Positions 4,668-26,978 of a DNA stretch of 36,253 bases are shown piece by piece (the stretch's first letter is position 1; each line of letters opens with the position of its first letter). The notes under the pieces are model-generated. The model ran no database searches. It was not told the DNA's origin and saw nothing but the letters and a program-made list of their open reading frames with translations. The stretch covers positions 1 to 36,253 of the forward strand of contig JAICEO010000004.1 of NCBI GenBank assembly GCA_025924135.1, given 5' to 3'. A program made the position numbers and the translations under genes. This DNA is from Nitrososphaeraceae archaeon (GTDB taxonomy: Archaea; Thermoproteota; Nitrososphaeria; Nitrososphaerales; Nitrososphaeraceae).

Positions 4668-5333
4668 ATGACTTTTAAAAGAATTCCTAGAGTTGGTATT
4701 GGTGGTCCAGTAGGTTCAGGTAAGACAATGTTGATAGAACAATTTGTTCCATTATTAAGTCAAATAGGATATAGATCTGCTATTATTTCCAATGACGTAG
4801 TATCAAAAGAAGATGCGGATAGAATGAGAAGGAATTTAGCATCAGAAAGAGGACTTATGCCTGAAAGTCTTGTAATTGGCTTAGCCACAGGTGGATGTCC
4901 ACATACTGCGGTAAGAGAAGATCCTTCTATGAATCTCTCTGTAGTTGAAGATATTGAATCAGCTCACAATCAAGAGTTAGATTTAATAATAATTGAAAGT
5001 GGTGGAGACAATATTACTACCACATTTAGCCCTGCACTAGCAGATTATTTTATCTATATTATTGATGTGGCTGGAGGAGATAAATATCCACGAAAACGTG
5101 GTCTTGGGATAGAAACCTGCGATCTATTGATAATTAATAAAATTGATCTAGCACCACATGTAGGAGCAGACCTCAAGATAATGGAACGAGATGCAAAATT
5201 AATTAGAAAGGATAAACCTTTTGTTTTTGTAAACTGTAAAACTGGGGAGGGAATTAAAGAAGTAGCAGATAATATCGTAAAAGATGTGTTATTTGATTTA
5301 CCACCAAAAATCAACAAAAAACTGAATAACTAA
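4668..5333 (+). CDS. ureG: Urease accessory GTPase UreG
   Basis: 221-residue SIMIBI-class GTPase that couples GTP hydrolysis to nickel insertion into apo-urease. Walker A GGPVGSGKT is at 12-20, the nickel-binding CPH motif at 77-79 in TGGCPHTAVREDPS, the switch region ESGGDN is near 111-116, and the NKIDL guanine-specificity motif lies near 157-161. Length and motif order match bacterial and archaeal UreG closely. It sits between ureF and ureD with gaps of 21 and 1 bases, consistent with one transcript and stoichiometric production of the maturation complex. Confidence 0.97.
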   Translation: MTFKRIPRVGIGGPVGSGKTMLIEQFVPLLSQIGYRSAIISNDVVSKEDADRMRRNLASERGLMPESLVIGLATGGCPHTAVREDPSMNLSVVEDIESAHNQELDLIIIESGGDNITTTFSPALADYFIYIIDVAGGDKYPRKRGLGIETCDLLIINKIDLAPHVGADLKIMERDAKLIRKDKPFVFVNCKTGEGIKEVADNIVKDVLFDLPPKINKKLNN

Positions 5334-5334
5334 C

Positions 5335-6264
5335 TTGAAAGAACTAGAATATTTTATTCCAGATGATATCCCCCAAGAAGTATTATCTTACGAATCAGAT
5401 CTTAGTCAACTAAGTGTAGGAAAAGCAGGAAAATTAGGGGCTCTATTTTTACTACTAGAGAAAAATGATAAAGTAAATAAAACAGTTATCAAGGAACAAT
5501 ATTCTAAGGTACCTTTATTTACTCAAAGAGCTCTGTATCTTGAAGAAAGCCTTCCTTCTATGGCCTATATCTATATCATTTCTCCATCAGGGGGAGTACT
5601 ACAAGGAGATCGATATAGGATTGATATAAAATTAACTAAAAATGCAATAGCTCATATAACTACGCAAGGAGCTACCCGACTCTACAAAATGGATAAAAAT
5701 TTTGCCACACAAATCTTGAATATCTCATTAGACAGTAATTGCTATTTTGAATATGTTCCTGATCAAATAATACCTTATAGAAATTCAAGATTTTATCAAG
5801 CTGTGAATCTTAATGTAAATGATGATGCAACATTGATATATTCTGAAACCATAGTTCCTGGTCGAATGGCTATGGGCGAATATTTTGACTATGATGTATG
5901 TTATTTAAAGACTATAGCCAAAAACCATAATGGTTTATTAAAGCTTGTTGATACAGCGTTATTAGAACCAAAAAAAAATCAATTAAAAAGATTTGGGCTT
6001 CTAGAAGCATTTAATATGTTCTCAAACATGTATTTATTACTTCCATCTAAGTATGTAAATATTTTAAATGAAAAAATCAGTGAAGAAATTATTAAATATA
6101 ATAAAGTAGTAGCAAGGTGTTCAATATTACCTAATGATTCTGGAATAATAGTAAGAATGCTAGGCAACATGATTGATAATATCAAAGAAGTAACTCACCA
6201 TATACTTAAAATCTGTAGGCAGGAAATTCTTGGTGCTGACTTTAGCGGTATTAGGAAGAATTAA
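5335..6264 (+). CDS. ureD: Urease accessory protein UreD (UreH)
   Basis: 309-residue UreD, the scaffold that binds apo-urease and recruits UreF/UreG. Evidence is the central UreD signature SPSGGVLQGDRYRIDI followed by ITTQGATRLYKM, then YVPDQIIPYRNSRFYQ and SETIVPGRMAMGE. The start is TTG at 5335, one base after the ureG stop; no in-frame ATG lies near enough to keep the conserved N-terminus, so the TTG is well supported. It is the last gene of the cluster: a 450-base AT-rich gap follows and no clear hairpin terminator was seen. Confidence 0.92.
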   Translation: MKELEYFIPDDIPQEVLSYESDLSQLSVGKAGKLGALFLLLEKNDKVNKTVIKEQYSKVPLFTQRALYLEESLPSMAYIYIISPSGGVLQGDRYRIDIKLTKNAIAHITTQGATRLYKMDKNFATQILNISLDSNCYFEYVPDQIIPYRNSRFYQAVNLNVNDDATLIYSETIVPGRMAMGEYFDYDVCYLKTIAKNHNGLLKLVDTALLEPKKNQLKRFGLLEAFNMFSNMYLLLPSKYVNILNEKISEEIIKYNKVVARCSILPNDSGIIVRMLGNMIDNIKEVTHHILKICRQEILGADFSGIRKN

Positions 6265-22574: not shown

Positions 22575-23450
22575 TTATTTTTCTATATCCAGTTTTAAAT
22601 CATATAACCCTTGTAATGATGGTTGTATTAATCCATGAATGGCTTTCACTGCTTCAGTATAGGGTTTTTTCATTTCAATAATAGAGCCAAGTTTAGCAAT
22701 CCCTTCGTTTAATTGATTAACTTTCTCTGTCTCATTAATTTTGTGTTTTGACTGGATTTCTTTGAATAAATCTGAAATTGTGTGTGATAATCCTAGTGCT
22801 GTAGAATAGGCTGTATCATTGTGAATTTCTTTACTAGTAGTCGTATGATTTTCTCCATGATTATCCAGACTAATAGCTGACGTGTTCGTAAATTGGGGTT
22901 GTTGATGGTTGGTAGTGTTGTCTATACTAATAGCTGACATGTTATATGGAGATACATTAAATGAATTAGCATAATTGATATCCACGTCATTTACTAAAGT
23001 AGCTAGTCTTAAAGCTTGGGTTGTTGAATTATTTAAAATATCGTCTGCAATTCTGACTGTTATTGCTTCGTCTAAAACTGCCTCAAAATCCGATACAGTT
23101 TTAGCTATTTGGGCTTTGGTAATGTTTTGAGGATCGATCATAGAAAATGACTTTATAGATTCAGTAATTTCATTTGCTACTCTTTTATTTTCTTCTTGAA
23201 CTTCTTTGTTTGTATCATTATTATATAACTGTTTTAATAATTGTGCATGATTAATTGCGGAATCATAATCATTTTCTAAAAGAGATTGTTCAATTAATTG
23301 AGCCTGAGTCTTCAAGTTATCAACTAAAGCTAAAAACACCACACTTTCATTTGTTGAAAAAGTGTGAGCGTATATTTGAACGATTGAAAATGACATAGTA
23401 ATAATGAATAATAATAGTATGGTAAGTCTTTTCAAGATATAGCATATCAT
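22575..23450 (-). CDS. Exported helical protein next to the copper-resistance fusion
   Basis: 291 residues, no known family. A signal peptide (about 6-30, cleavage likely after IYA) leaves His as the first mature residue (HTFSTNES), as in CopC. Two helical blocks (about 38-165 and 215-290) flank a low-complexity linker rich in N, T, S, H and Q that contains the repeat SAISIDN/SAISLDN. Many Asn-x-Ser/Thr sequons fit an exported archaeal glycoprotein. It is divergent from the CopC-CopD fusion gene and shares its 483-base promoter region, so a joint role in extracytoplasmic copper handling is plausible but inferred only from position and N-terminal His. Confidence 0.75.
   Translation of the reverse strand: MICYILKRLTILLLFIITMSFSIVQIYAHTFSTNESVVFLALVDNLKTQAQLIEQSLLENDYDSAINHAQLLKQLYNNDTNKEVQEENKRVANEITESIKSFSMIDPQNITKAQIAKTVSDFEAVLDEAITVRIADDILNNSTTQALRLATLVNDVDINYANSFNVSPYNMSAISIDNTTNHQQPQFTNTSAISLDNHGENHTTTSKEIHNDTAYSTALGLSHTISDLFKEIQSKHKINETEKVNQLNEGIAKLGSIIEMKKPYTEAVKAIHGLIQPSLQGLYDLKLDIEK
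22869..22938 (-). repeat. Direct repeat inside the exported protein gene
   Basis: A perfect 13-base repeat (ACTAATAGCTGAC on the plus strand) occurs at 22869-22881 and 22926-22938, exactly 57 bases (19 codons) apart. It encodes the repeated SAIS segment in the linker. Confidence 0.7.
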
Positions 23451-23933
23451 ATTATCCTACATAATAAATTTATGGTACAAACATAAAACTCAACTTTTAA
23501 TTTCTTATTGGATATTATAAAAAGAAAGTAAAGATAATATACCATGATCTCGCGATTATAAAATATCATTCAAATTATCATAAATTAATCCTTAGATAGG
23601 GTATAACTTCTAATTATTATCATATATCTCATACATTCAAAAAAATGAATCAATCAGGTATTTTATTTTAAAAAACTCTTTTTGATAAATACTATCCCCA
23701 GTTTTCTGTATTTGGGAACTAGAATAATTATAATAATAAAAAGAAAATTACAAATAATATGATGGTAATCAAATATATGTTATATTTAAATAAATTTTAA
23801 ACAATGACTTTGTAAATGCTCGACAGAATTTGAACCGTTATAATTATATTAATAACAAAATAGTTCCCAGAAACGAAAATTCTCGAGAAAACAAATTAAT
23901 TCTTGAAGATGGGAATAATATATTGGAGTATCC
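23451..23933. other. Intergenic, 483 bases, shared divergent promoter region
   Basis: Between two divergently transcribed exported/membrane genes. AT-rich, with several TATA-like stretches, of which none is clearly best. No operator palindrome, RNA gene or ORF identified. Confidence 0.4.
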
Positions 23934-26900
23934 GTGAGAGAATTAAAAAAAAAAATTTTCCTATCTTCTAGTTTAATTTTTTTTTCCTTAGTATGTATTA
24001 CAAGTTATTTTCCTACCCACGTTTATGCACATCCTATAATAACAGATTCAAATCCTACTCAATTTCAATCCCTAAAAAAACCACCCGATCGCGTTACAGT
24101 ATATTTCAGCGAACCTATAGTTTTACCGTATAGTCAAATTTCTGTAATTGATTCTGAAGGGAATAAAGTAGATGAGGGAAATCCACAAAATTATAATGGA
24201 GATACTTCTACTATTTCTATACCAGTAAAAACAGATATCGGTGAAGGAACTTTTACTATTAACACTAAAGTACTCTCTGCAGTTGATGGACACGTGGTTG
24301 ATGGATCTGTAGTCTATAGTATTGGAGAGGGAGAGGCGGATTTTAGTCAAGTAAAGTCTAAATCTAAAGACATTGGTCATTTATTATCAATAGATAATTC
24401 TCTCAGTAGGATACCAGGCTCTGTAGGTCAGAGTGTAATAGTTGGAGCCTCATTCATATTTTTGTGGATTCAAAAACCTTTATCAAAATATGAATGGGTC
24501 AAAAGTTTAATTCAACCAAGTTTGTATCTAATAAAAAGAGATTTAATAAAATTAGTTATTATTGGAGATGTTCTAATACTTTTTTCTATTGCTGCTATGG
24601 TAATTATTCAAGCTTCTGCTATAGGAGGATCAATATTGGATGTATTAACTACAGAATTTGGAAAGATTATCATTATTCGGTTAGGATTGGCTCTAGCATT
24701 ATTAGGATTTTTACTATTTTGTTATAAAAAATTTAACATCTCTAAAAAAAATAGAGGTAAAGTTGGGCAGTTTATTGCTATAATGTGTCTAGGTTTAGGT
24801 TTATTATTTACCAATAGCATGATATCTCATTCTGCAGCATTAAAGAATTTTGGTCCCATTCTAATAGATTATTTTCATGGAATAGCTGCTTCATTTTGGA
24901 TTGGAGGGTTGATTTTTTTGACGTTTATTTTTGTTTCAAAAATATTTTTAATCAAAGATGAAGAATTAAAAGCAAAAATTATTTCCATGGTAATTCCTCG
25001 ATTTTCAGTTATTATAATACCAGTGTTAGGTAGTATATCTATAACTGGACCAATCTTATTGTGGTCATTAGAATCTAATCTTTCTACTACAATTTCTTCA
25101 TTATATGGTAAAATATTGATTATAAAATTAACACTTGCTGCTATCATGATAATATTAGGGGGTTACCATCAATTCATAACCGAAAAACGAATTTCTAATT
25201 TATCAATAAAACAAGTAGGAGAAAAAGGGCATAGCAAACAAACATTTGCAAATCAACCCAACTTTCTAAAACGATTTATTTGGAGTTTAAGAATTGAAAC
25301 ATTTATAGGTATAGGCCTTTTGTTTGTAGTTTCTTTAATGACTAATATGGTATTACCGTCAGGTGAACTGCCCTCTTCAAACCCTATCAATAATACCGCA
25401 ACTGTAAACCTTGAAAACCAAGTACAAAATAAAGATATTTATTCTACTGTTGTTTATAGCGAAAATCAGAAAATACAAATCAATTTAGACCCTGGGAGAT
25501 TGGGAGAGAACAAAATATTTGTAGAATTTTCTGATTACAATAATAATCCAACAGCTAACATAATTAACGCTACCCTAAAATTATCACAAATAGAACGAGG
25601 GATTGGACCAATTCTAATAGATATGCAAAAAATCTCTAATGGACGATTCAATGCAGTAGTTCCTATTAGTGCATTGGGATTATGGAATATCGAAATACAG
25701 GGAAAGACATTACAGCCTAATACTCCAAATACTATTGCTACCTTTGAAATAAATATAAAACCGAGAATTTCTGATTTACAATTTAATATAACAGAATACA
25801 AATCTCCTCAAAACAGTCTATTGCTTTATCCTGTGTATCAGGCTAGTACTGATTCTATTTGGGTAGGCGATTCCCTACCAGGAAGTGGAAGGTTGTGGAA
25901 ATTTGATATTAAGAATAAGAACTACCAAGAGTATACAATCAATGGTATAAATCTAATTACCTTATCTGTTTTTGATCCAAAAAATCCCAACATCTTATGG
26001 TTTATAGATCCAACCTCCAATATATTAGGTAAATTCAATACGGATACTAATAATACTGAAACATACGAATTACCGAATAAAGGAGTCATATCGGGCTTGA
26101 CAATAGATAACAGTGATAACATATGGATGAGTATTATACAAGATAATTCACTTCTGAAATTTGATATAAATAAAAAAAACTTTGAAACGTTTAGAATTCC
26201 CACAGATAATTCAAGACCATCAAGTCCTATTTACGATGAAAATAATAATTATATCTGGTTTGCAGAATCGATAGGAAAAATAGGAAGATTAGATATACAA
26301 ACTAAAACAATTAGTGAGTATCCGAATGTCACAGAATCAAATACCTTGGAGAGGACTATCTTATCTGAACCAACAGCATTGTTGTTGGACGAAAAAAATT
26401 CAAATCTCTATATTAGTGACCATGAAAAAAATTCTCTTATTCAATTTAATACGTTTACCTCGTTATTTAAAGAGTATCCTTTAACCGATATTAACGGATT
26501 AGCATTTGGGATGGCTATAGATGCCTACGGTAATCTATGGATAGCTCAACACGTTTCAGACACACTTGCAATACTAGACCCAGATACAGGAGAAACTATT
26601 AATATAGATATTCCAACCTCAAGTTCTTTTGTACAATATCTTGTGACAGACTCTAAAAAAGATGTCTGGTTTGCAGAGCAGCGAGGCAATGCGCTTGGAA
26701 AAGTCACAATCAAATTTATTCCTAATAATTCTCCAAACATGGCATTTAACCCAAGCTCAATAACTGATAATAATAATAATCAAACAGATAGCAATATTGC
26801 CAATAAAAAAATATTTAATGAACTTAGATTTAACGATTTTTTTGGTCCTTTAATTATAATTGCAATTGCTGCTTCAACAATACTATTCGTAAATAGTAGT

Positions 26901-26978
26901 GAGCAATTGAGAAAAAAACAGTTAGAAATAGAAAATATTGAAGATAAAAGAAAACTAAAAGGTAACAAGACAAAATAA
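23934..26978 (+). CDS. CopC-CopD-Ig-like-beta-propeller fusion (copper handling)
   Basis: 1014-residue multidomain protein. Signal peptide 1-32 (cut after VYA) exposes mature His33, and a CopC domain follows (33-135), with YFSEPI and a DGH motif (D118, H120). The N-terminal His and D-x-H are the Cu(II) ligands known for CopC. A CopD membrane domain with about eight helices spans 160-470 and has candidate ligands in ISHSAA (H299) and DYFHGIAASFWIGGL (H315). An Ig-like/YtkA-type domain (about 500-600) comes next, then a Vgb/NHL-like beta-propeller (about 615-945) with repeats of the type NIWMSIIQDNSLLKFD and NLWIAQHVSDTLAILD. A C-terminal membrane helix (about 967-985) and basic tail end it. 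Start GTG 23934. Topology puts the sensor-like propeller outside. Copper import or scavenging for ammonia oxidation is inferred. Confidence 0.9.
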   Translation: MRELKKKIFLSSSLIFFSLVCITSYFPTHVYAHPIITDSNPTQFQSLKKPPDRVTVYFSEPIVLPYSQISVIDSEGNKVDEGNPQNYNGDTSTISIPVKTDIGEGTFTINTKVLSAVDGHVVDGSVVYSIGEGEADFSQVKSKSKDIGHLLSIDNSLSRIPGSVGQSVIVGASFIFLWIQKPLSKYEWVKSLIQPSLYLIKRDLIKLVIIGDVLILFSIAAMVIIQASAIGGSILDVLTTEFGKIIIIRLGLALALLGFLLFCYKKFNISKKNRGKVGQFIAIMCLGLGLLFTNSMISHSAALKNFGPILIDYFHGIAASFWIGGLIFLTFIFVSKIFLIKDEELKAKIISMVIPRFSVIIIPVLGSISITGPILLWSLESNLSTTISSLYGKILIIKLTLAAIMIILGGYHQFITEKRISNLSIKQVGEKGHSKQTFANQPNFLKRFIWSLRIETFIGIGLLFVVSLMTNMVLPSGELPSSNPINNTATVNLENQVQNKDIYSTVVYSENQKIQINLDPGRLGENKIFVEFSDYNNNPTANIINATLKLSQIERGIGPILIDMQKISNGRFNAVVPISALGLWNIEIQGKTLQPNTPNTIATFEINIKPRISDLQFNITEYKSPQNSLLLYPVYQASTDSIWVGDSLPGSGRLWKFDIKNKNYQEYTINGINLITLSVFDPKNPNILWFIDPTSNILGKFNTDTNNTETYELPNKGVISGLTIDNSDNIWMSIIQDNSLLKFDINKKNFETFRIPTDNSRPSSPIYDENNNYIWFAESIGKIGRLDIQTKTISEYPNVTESNTLERTILSEPTALLLDEKNSNLYISDHEKNSLIQFNTFTSLFKEYPLTDINGLAFGMAIDAYGNLWIAQHVSDTLAILDPDTGETINIDIPTSSSFVQYLVTDSKKDVWFAEQRGNALGKVTIKFIPNNSPNMAFNPSSITDNNNNQTDSNIANKKIFNELRFNDFFGPLIIIAIAASTILFVNSSEQLRKKQLEIENIEDKRKLKGNKTK

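Follow-up and report, generated by a model that had tools for sequence, protein, structure and literature searches.

The open reading frame at 23934–26978 (+ strand; 1014 aa, GTG start) of the DNA analysed here, a 36,253-nucleotide stretch from a Nitrososphaeraceae archaeon (hereafter the window), specifies CopC, CopD, a YtkA/Ig-like domain, a seven-bladed β-propeller and a C-terminal membrane helix in a single chain. We consider this product to be, with reasonable probability, a YcnJ-type copper-acquisition protein of ammonia-oxidizing archaea (AOA) and their close relatives that uses its added ectodomain to dock or relay copper. Far from being an oddity of the window, this architecture is common among AOA, and it is not strictly tied to amoA. 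The fusion is thus genuine, but widespread and not unique; what is new is a set of six conserved histidines and a group of neighbouring exported proteins with a predicted mature N-terminal histidine (His1).

Domain architecture and fold

Sequence and hydropathy place a signal peptide at residues 1–32 (23934–24029, +), ending ...VYA immediately before His33. It is followed by the CopC domain (residues 33–130; 24030–24323, +) [Pfam, 8.4e-15] and by a CopD membrane domain of eight helices (approximately residues 161–474; 24414–25355, +), delimited by alignment and hydropathy, within which Pfam CopD matches residues 353–468 [4.6e-13]. The YtkA/Ig-like domain (approximately residues 496–610; 25419–25763, +) gave no Pfam match in the window protein alone and was located through the alignment: of the 16 members aligned over this domain, 14 match PF13115 [YtkA, best 2e-08], and a profile made from the aligned domain also matches the solved "copper resistance protein" 9ll2 [6.5e-4]. 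The propeller (residues 611–932; 25764–26729, +) is matched by the Pfam models Vgb_lyase [9.6e-22; score 77.6 bits, cut-off 50] and SGL [5.4e-09], and hydropathy indicates a C-terminal membrane helix (residues 969–987; 26838–26894, +) followed by a Lys-rich tail. Among solved structures, sequence matches of the window protein were to Vgb and to the CopC domain of YcnJ (9c14).

Conservation was assessed in an alignment of 52 rows, representing 50 distinct genes (G020 is entered twice, as L051/L139, and G084 as L049/L144) from five families, one amoA-negative. The rows were picked as good full-length matches, and 52/52 is to be read as conservation among such matches. Hydropathy of the window protein gives a signal peptide, the eight CopD helices and one C-terminal helix; the last is present in 50 of the 52 rows, and CopD has eight helices in 47 rows and seven in the other five. 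Since CopC lies outside and the number of helices is even, the YtkA-like domain and the propeller would by this topological rule face outside as well. Proteins from genus g8 (L065 and L071 of G206; G345) are longer, at 1269–1319 aa, with extra sequence within the propeller-type CopC/D frame.

Residues 611–932 modelled alone, with an alignment of three close rows in which identity to the window sequence is 91% and 86%, gave a confident seven-bladed fold with 28 strands, that is, seven times four (pLDDT 83.6, pTM 0.85). A full-length AlphaFold model from a 3-row alignment reached a pLDDT of 33 and was discarded. Foldseek ranked Vgb first for the propeller model [2.1e-16], and VIA-align superimposed the two with Z 36.2 and an rmsd of 1.9 over 294 residues; Vgb stands approximately 3 Z units above unrelated propellers, many of which score close behind. 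A sequence-only reading of this DNA had described the same order of domains in one chain, which is borne out by Pfam, by PF13115 in the relatives, by the fold and by hydropathy; its outward-facing propeller with a C-terminal anchor agrees with helix count and hydropathy, and the structure prediction that it named as a check on the propeller returned the confident fold given above. It had counted the Ytk-type domain together with the propeller and anchor as additions to CopC-CopD. That holds for the propeller and the anchor and not for the YtkA domain, which is already present in Bacillus subtilis YcnJ, as far as the accessible parts of PMC12154828 and PMC13344008 go.

Distribution and relationship to amoA

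In the family to which the window belongs (f1), 37 of 70 genomes carry CopC through propeller in one open frame, as counted over the rows listed: 36 of the 55 outside genus g2, and one of the 15 within it. Many of the others are fragments on short contigs, and a match at E ≤ 1e-20 was found in 48 of the 70. In the family of G008, a match at E ≤ 1e-50 was obtained in 169 of the 185 genomes that are 80% complete or better (124/131 if only the better genomes are taken), and in the family of G072 five of seven genomes have a full-length copy and one a partial copy. A draw across the phylum gave matches at E ≤ 1e-20 in 57 of 299 genomes, a single one of which lies outside the class (G482, a partial propeller match). 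Thirteen records in a plasmid collection matched, none of them with 80% query coverage, and no bacterial copy was present there; a search of genome contigs returned three loci, all near relatives.

The amoA gene was found in 19 of the 40 genomes tested, and in 12 it is accompanied by the full architecture. Of the other seven, five are g2 genomes that lack it, G085 lacks it too, and in G088 the copy runs off the contig; all five g2 genomes tested possess amoA and are missing the propeller type. Among the 21 amoA-negative genomes, for some of which part of the candidates was scored, only G170 bears the architecture (27% identity, 992 aa). COX1 was present in 16 of 17 genomes tested, G170 included. 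Because AOA families keep the propeller with the exception of g2, and because the amoA-negative G170 has it, the distribution argues for a general copper role and not one bound to ammonia monooxygenase. The G170 locus (L141; G170:C1:925300–944900) carries the full CopC-CopD-YtkA-propeller gene, immediately upstream of which is a gene of flank protein family 2 (see below); genes of ArsR type and for small membrane proteins lie in the vicinity.

A second gene of this kind helps to place the g2 exception. Beside its propeller gene, G136 has a propeller-less paralogue of 679 aa (L054:5933–7969). The g2 genome G075 has three adjacent genes, whose products are a CopD of 494 aa, a His1 protein of 211 aa and a CopC-YtkA of 271 aa. 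The CopD and CopC-YtkA products are 43% and 28% identical to the G136 paralogue and are closer to it than to the propeller type; g2 thus keeps a split form of the paralogue. Genus g2 we take to be Nitrosocosmicus, in which case NFRAN_1082–1084 would be three genes of the G075 type. A copC-copD region with these locus tags is reported in the accessible portion of PMC12448741.

Response to copper limitation

According to the part of PMC7785015 that is available, both copC/D_a and copC/D_b of Nitrososphaera viennensis are up-regulated under copper limitation. A sequence motif occurs twice before copC/D_b, also at NVIE_014290, which is adjoined by the ArsR gene NVIE_014280, and on the opposite strand before the exported protein NVIE_014340 (PMC7785015, same portion). 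In this strain a pair of genes for CopC/D fusions was also induced on air-exposed filters, as described in the accessible sections of PMC11561398.

In G136 the propeller protein is 988 aa in length (L054:8721–11684) and has the same full architecture. The gene order there, CopC/D_b, X, CopC/D_a, small membrane protein, ArsR, corresponds to the published NVIE_014310/014300/014290/014280 of N. viennensis. Two near-copies of the motif, with one and two mismatches, start at approximately −43 and −69 before the 988-aa gene; another precedes a 135-aa membrane protein, after which comes an ArsR-type gene, and the family-2 His1 gene of this locus has a near-copy on the opposite strand. Based upon motif and gene order we identify the 988-aa propeller protein as the presumptive N. 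viennensis copC/D_b product, NVIE_014310, so that the measured copper response would attach to the propeller architecture; the family-2 protein is suggested to be NVIE_014340. The published account describes copC/D_b only as a CopC/D fusion, with no mention of a propeller: the words propeller, streptogramin and NHL have no match in the main text of PMC7785015.

The published 18-letter copper-limitation motif gave two matches with up to three mismatches in the window against 1.62 expected, neither of them near the gene. Its 13-letter core, TTTGTACCATAAA, does occur at 23469–23481 (−), in the 483-base intergenic stretch shared with the divergent gene, which it adjoins; the start of the CopC/D gene is some 450 bases away. 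A first-order Markov estimate gives 0.006 expected occurrences of this core in the window, an optimistic figure since the core was chosen after the homologues had been seen.

The sequence-only reading had linked the protein to the heavy copper need of ammonia oxidation. Induction of the orthologue under copper limitation supports the part on copper need; the tie to ammonia oxidation in particular is loose, given the g2 genomes and G170. Docking of other copper proteins or sensing of ligands by the propeller, which that reading also put forward, would be a possible role. The combination of domains which it had presented as unusual turns out to be widespread in the AOA families, and no characterised example was found.

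Comparison with YcnJ and with copper propellers

In those parts of PMC12154828 and PMC13344008 that are accessible, B. subtilis YcnJ has the architecture CopC-CopD-YtkA and serves as a copper importer on which the cell depends when the metal is limiting. The CopC residue His24 and the CopD residue His295 are both required under these circumstances, and the role of the YtkA domain in the assembly of copper into the oxidase overlaps with that of CtaK (PMC13344008, accessible part). The first three domains of the window protein occur in the same order. Its CopC domain has the His1/Asp/His set of the single Cu(II)-site class of YcnJ (His33, Asp118 and His120), and its CopD domain has the invariant His299 and His315, which are set beside YcnJ His295 by description. 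The YtkA feature is shared through PF13115 in 14 of the 16 members, the window member alone falling below detection. YcnJ ends after YtkA, whereas the window protein continues with the propeller and C-terminal helix; it is a variant, not a plain member, and since CopC-CopD-YtkA equals YcnJ only the propeller and anchor have been added, lineage-wide.

N2O reductase and thiocyanate dehydrogenase are known copper propellers. The thiocyanate dehydrogenase of Thioalkalivibrio is a seven-bladed propeller flanked by copC and copD (PMC6504805); by description, then, a propeller is associated with CopC and CopD as it is here, but as separate genes. In the literature searched, which consisted mostly of the main texts of non-subscription papers, we found neither a description of a CopC/CopD-propeller fusion in AOA nor any experiment on metal binding or transport by a member with the propeller.

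Conserved histidines

Of the ten histidines in the window protein, six are kept in 52/52 rows, and they fall into pairs: 33 and 120 in CopC, 299 and 315 in CopD, and 830 and 873 in the propeller. Exactly these six columns have His in at least 45 of the 52 rows. Asp118 accompanies the CopC pair and Asp312 the CopD pair in every row, as does Trp584 in the YtkA-like domain. By analogy with YcnJ, His33 (the predicted mature N-terminus), Asp118 and His120 would be the ligands of a Cu(II) site.

In the propeller His830 (codon 26421–26423, +) and His873 (codon 26550–26552, +) are situated, from alignment and model, at the ends of the second strands of blades 5 and 6. Gln901 is invariant and Asp646 and Asp692 are present in 51/52 rows; residue 829, adjoining His830, is Glu or Asp in 50/52, and residue 872, adjoining His873, is Gln or Glu in 48/52. 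No conserved Cys was found in the propeller among the 52 rows. Given the usual layout of propellers, the two histidines, the acids and Gln901 probably lie on one face. We infer that the invariant His830/His873 pair is the best candidate for a metal or docking site of the propeller, and a third copper site there is plausible from the sequence. Eleven free-standing propellers gave an uninterrupted alignment of no fewer than 180 residues; both histidines occur in five (L090, L097, L100, L102 and L105) and not in the other six, so the pair is not specific to the fusion. One of these, L090:1486–2853, is an exported protein; it adjoins L090:2961–3416, which by eye resembles a fragment of cytochrome oxidase subunit II or a cupredoxin.

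Neighbouring His1 proteins

The divergent gene at 22575–23450 (−) specifies an exported protein of 291 aa in which ...IYA is followed by HTF, a predicted mature N-terminal His, and which has a His-rich stretch; no Pfam match was obtained. It belongs to flank protein family 5, whose members all (10/10) have [AGS] then His and which was encountered in 9 of the 28 flanks analysed, each from a different genome. Family 2 is present in 23 of the 28 flanks, and 19 members lie within 400 bases of the CopC/D gene. These proteins, of approximately 225 aa with a C-terminal membrane helix, show no convincing Pfam family; in 27 of 27 members the signal peptide ends in [AGS] and His comes next. Family 2 (L054:13397–14086 and relatives) also has a "GW..EPP"-like N-terminal stretch and a coiled-coil besides the membrane helix, the coiled-coil end weakly matching the solved "conserved membrane protein" 8qox_B [2.9e-5]. 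Homology of family 2 to the YtkA-like domain was considered and is not supported (hhalign probability 4.4).

The His1 feature was found in 82 of 199 exported-type ORFs in the 28 flanks (CopC/D genes left out) versus one of 68 in a 400-kb control taken from one genome, G136, exported-type ORFs being called with a crude script and no signal-peptide program. Within the G136 flank alone the count is 5/8, or 4/7 if the apparent shadow ORF L054:4278–4811 is removed (Fisher 1.4e-4); a looser His1 rule gives 4/107 in the same control. YcnJ CopC and YcnI of Bacillus both bind Cu(II) through the mature N-terminal His, and YcnI, the partner of YcnJ, is in addition anchored in the membrane (PMC12154828, accessible part). 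By this analogy the His1 neighbours are candidate copper binders, and they resemble YcnI in being predicted to be His1 and membrane-anchored; DUF1775 [YcnI] gave no Pfam match among the neighbours scanned.

A metal transporter (ZnuA/ABC-3/ATPase) and a regulator of NikR type are encoded in some flanks. ABC-3 permease and ATPase genes lie beside the CopC/D-propeller gene in L059, L127, L128, L131, L134, L137 and L138, some of which also have the ZnuA-type protein and the NikR-type regulator. Elsewhere in the window, 4668–6264 carries the urease accessory genes UreD and UreG-like (CobW/HypB/UreG domain).

Proposed role and alternatives

CopC, outside the membrane, would capture Cu(II) with Asp118, His120 and His33, the last of which becomes a free N-terminus once the signal peptide is cleaved. 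It would hand the copper to CopD (His299, Asp312, His315), which would move it toward the membrane or across it. A second ectodomain, made up of the YtkA-like domain and the propeller and held at the outer face by the C-terminal helix, would most likely take copper from, or give it to, exported copper proteins, among them presumably the small His1 products of the adjoining genes. The analysis itself documents the architecture, the rule-based topology, the fold, the conservation, the distribution, the gene context and which orthologue is copper-induced. From YcnJ it is known that CopC binds Cu(II) and that a histidine of CopD is required, and both may be carried over by analogy; the direction of transport, the role of the propeller and a metal at 830/873 are proposed here.

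A possible though less probable alternative is that the propeller is a metal-free structural or adhesive spacer which docks to the S-layer or a partner, CopC-CopD doing all of the copper work. Propellers are common docking folds, as the many unrelated ones scoring close behind Vgb illustrate, the conserved acids and histidines could serve protein contacts, and a propeller-less paralogue sits alongside in G136. Yet the propeller has only two histidines, both in 52/52 rows and accompanied by Gln901, and conservation of this degree seems to point to a site more than to a spacer. That the protein exports or detoxifies copper is unlikely: CopC and CopD were first named for copper resistance, but the orthologue rises when copper is limiting (PMC7785015, available part) and YcnJ mutants suffer when copper is scarce (PMC12154828, PMC13344008, accessible parts).

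We regard as quite improbable a small copper redox site in the propeller, such as one that would reduce Cu(II) and supply CopD with Cu(I). The bacterial seven-bladed propeller enzyme flanked by copC and copD (PMC6504805) offers a precedent, and CopC delivers Cu(II) while the cytosolic pool is described as Cu(I) (PMC12154828, PMC13344008, accessible parts), but there are two invariant histidines only, no conserved Cys, and no electron partner was found.

Vgb shares the seven-bladed fold; the window propeller differs in having no catalytic His, in being exported and in being fused to a membrane copper protein. We take catalysis in Vgb to involve His228 besides His270, and both to occupy strand-A entry positions, that is, the start of the inner strand of a blade. 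An active virginiamycin B-type or other cell-surface lyase, suggested by the closest fold and by the Pfam Vgb_lyase model, is very improbable and was rejected because equivalents of the catalytic histidines are missing: His occurs at none of the seven strand-A entry positions in any of the 52 rows, Ser stands opposite both Vgb histidines in local alignments, and Vgb H270A is titled catalytically inactive (PDB 2z2p). The annotation "virginiamycin B lyase" which the propeller half draws may therefore mislead. Antibiotic resistance has been inferred from this annotation, in the accessible part of PMC10064710, for a thaumarchaeal gene that may or may not be the one described here.

Returning to the copper-acquisition protein, a more specific and tentative proposal is an extracellular relay of AOA, in which unrelated anchored His1 proteins, encoded together, might pass Cu(II) to a three-station importer with one invariant His pair each in CopC, CopD and propeller; the propeller copper site would then be new among CopC/CopD proteins. 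The question of how ammonia monooxygenase and the oxidases are loaded with copper in AOA is now tied to named residues and neighbours: a copper-induced probable importer that is conserved across the group, the invariant His pair of its propeller and the His1 proteins.
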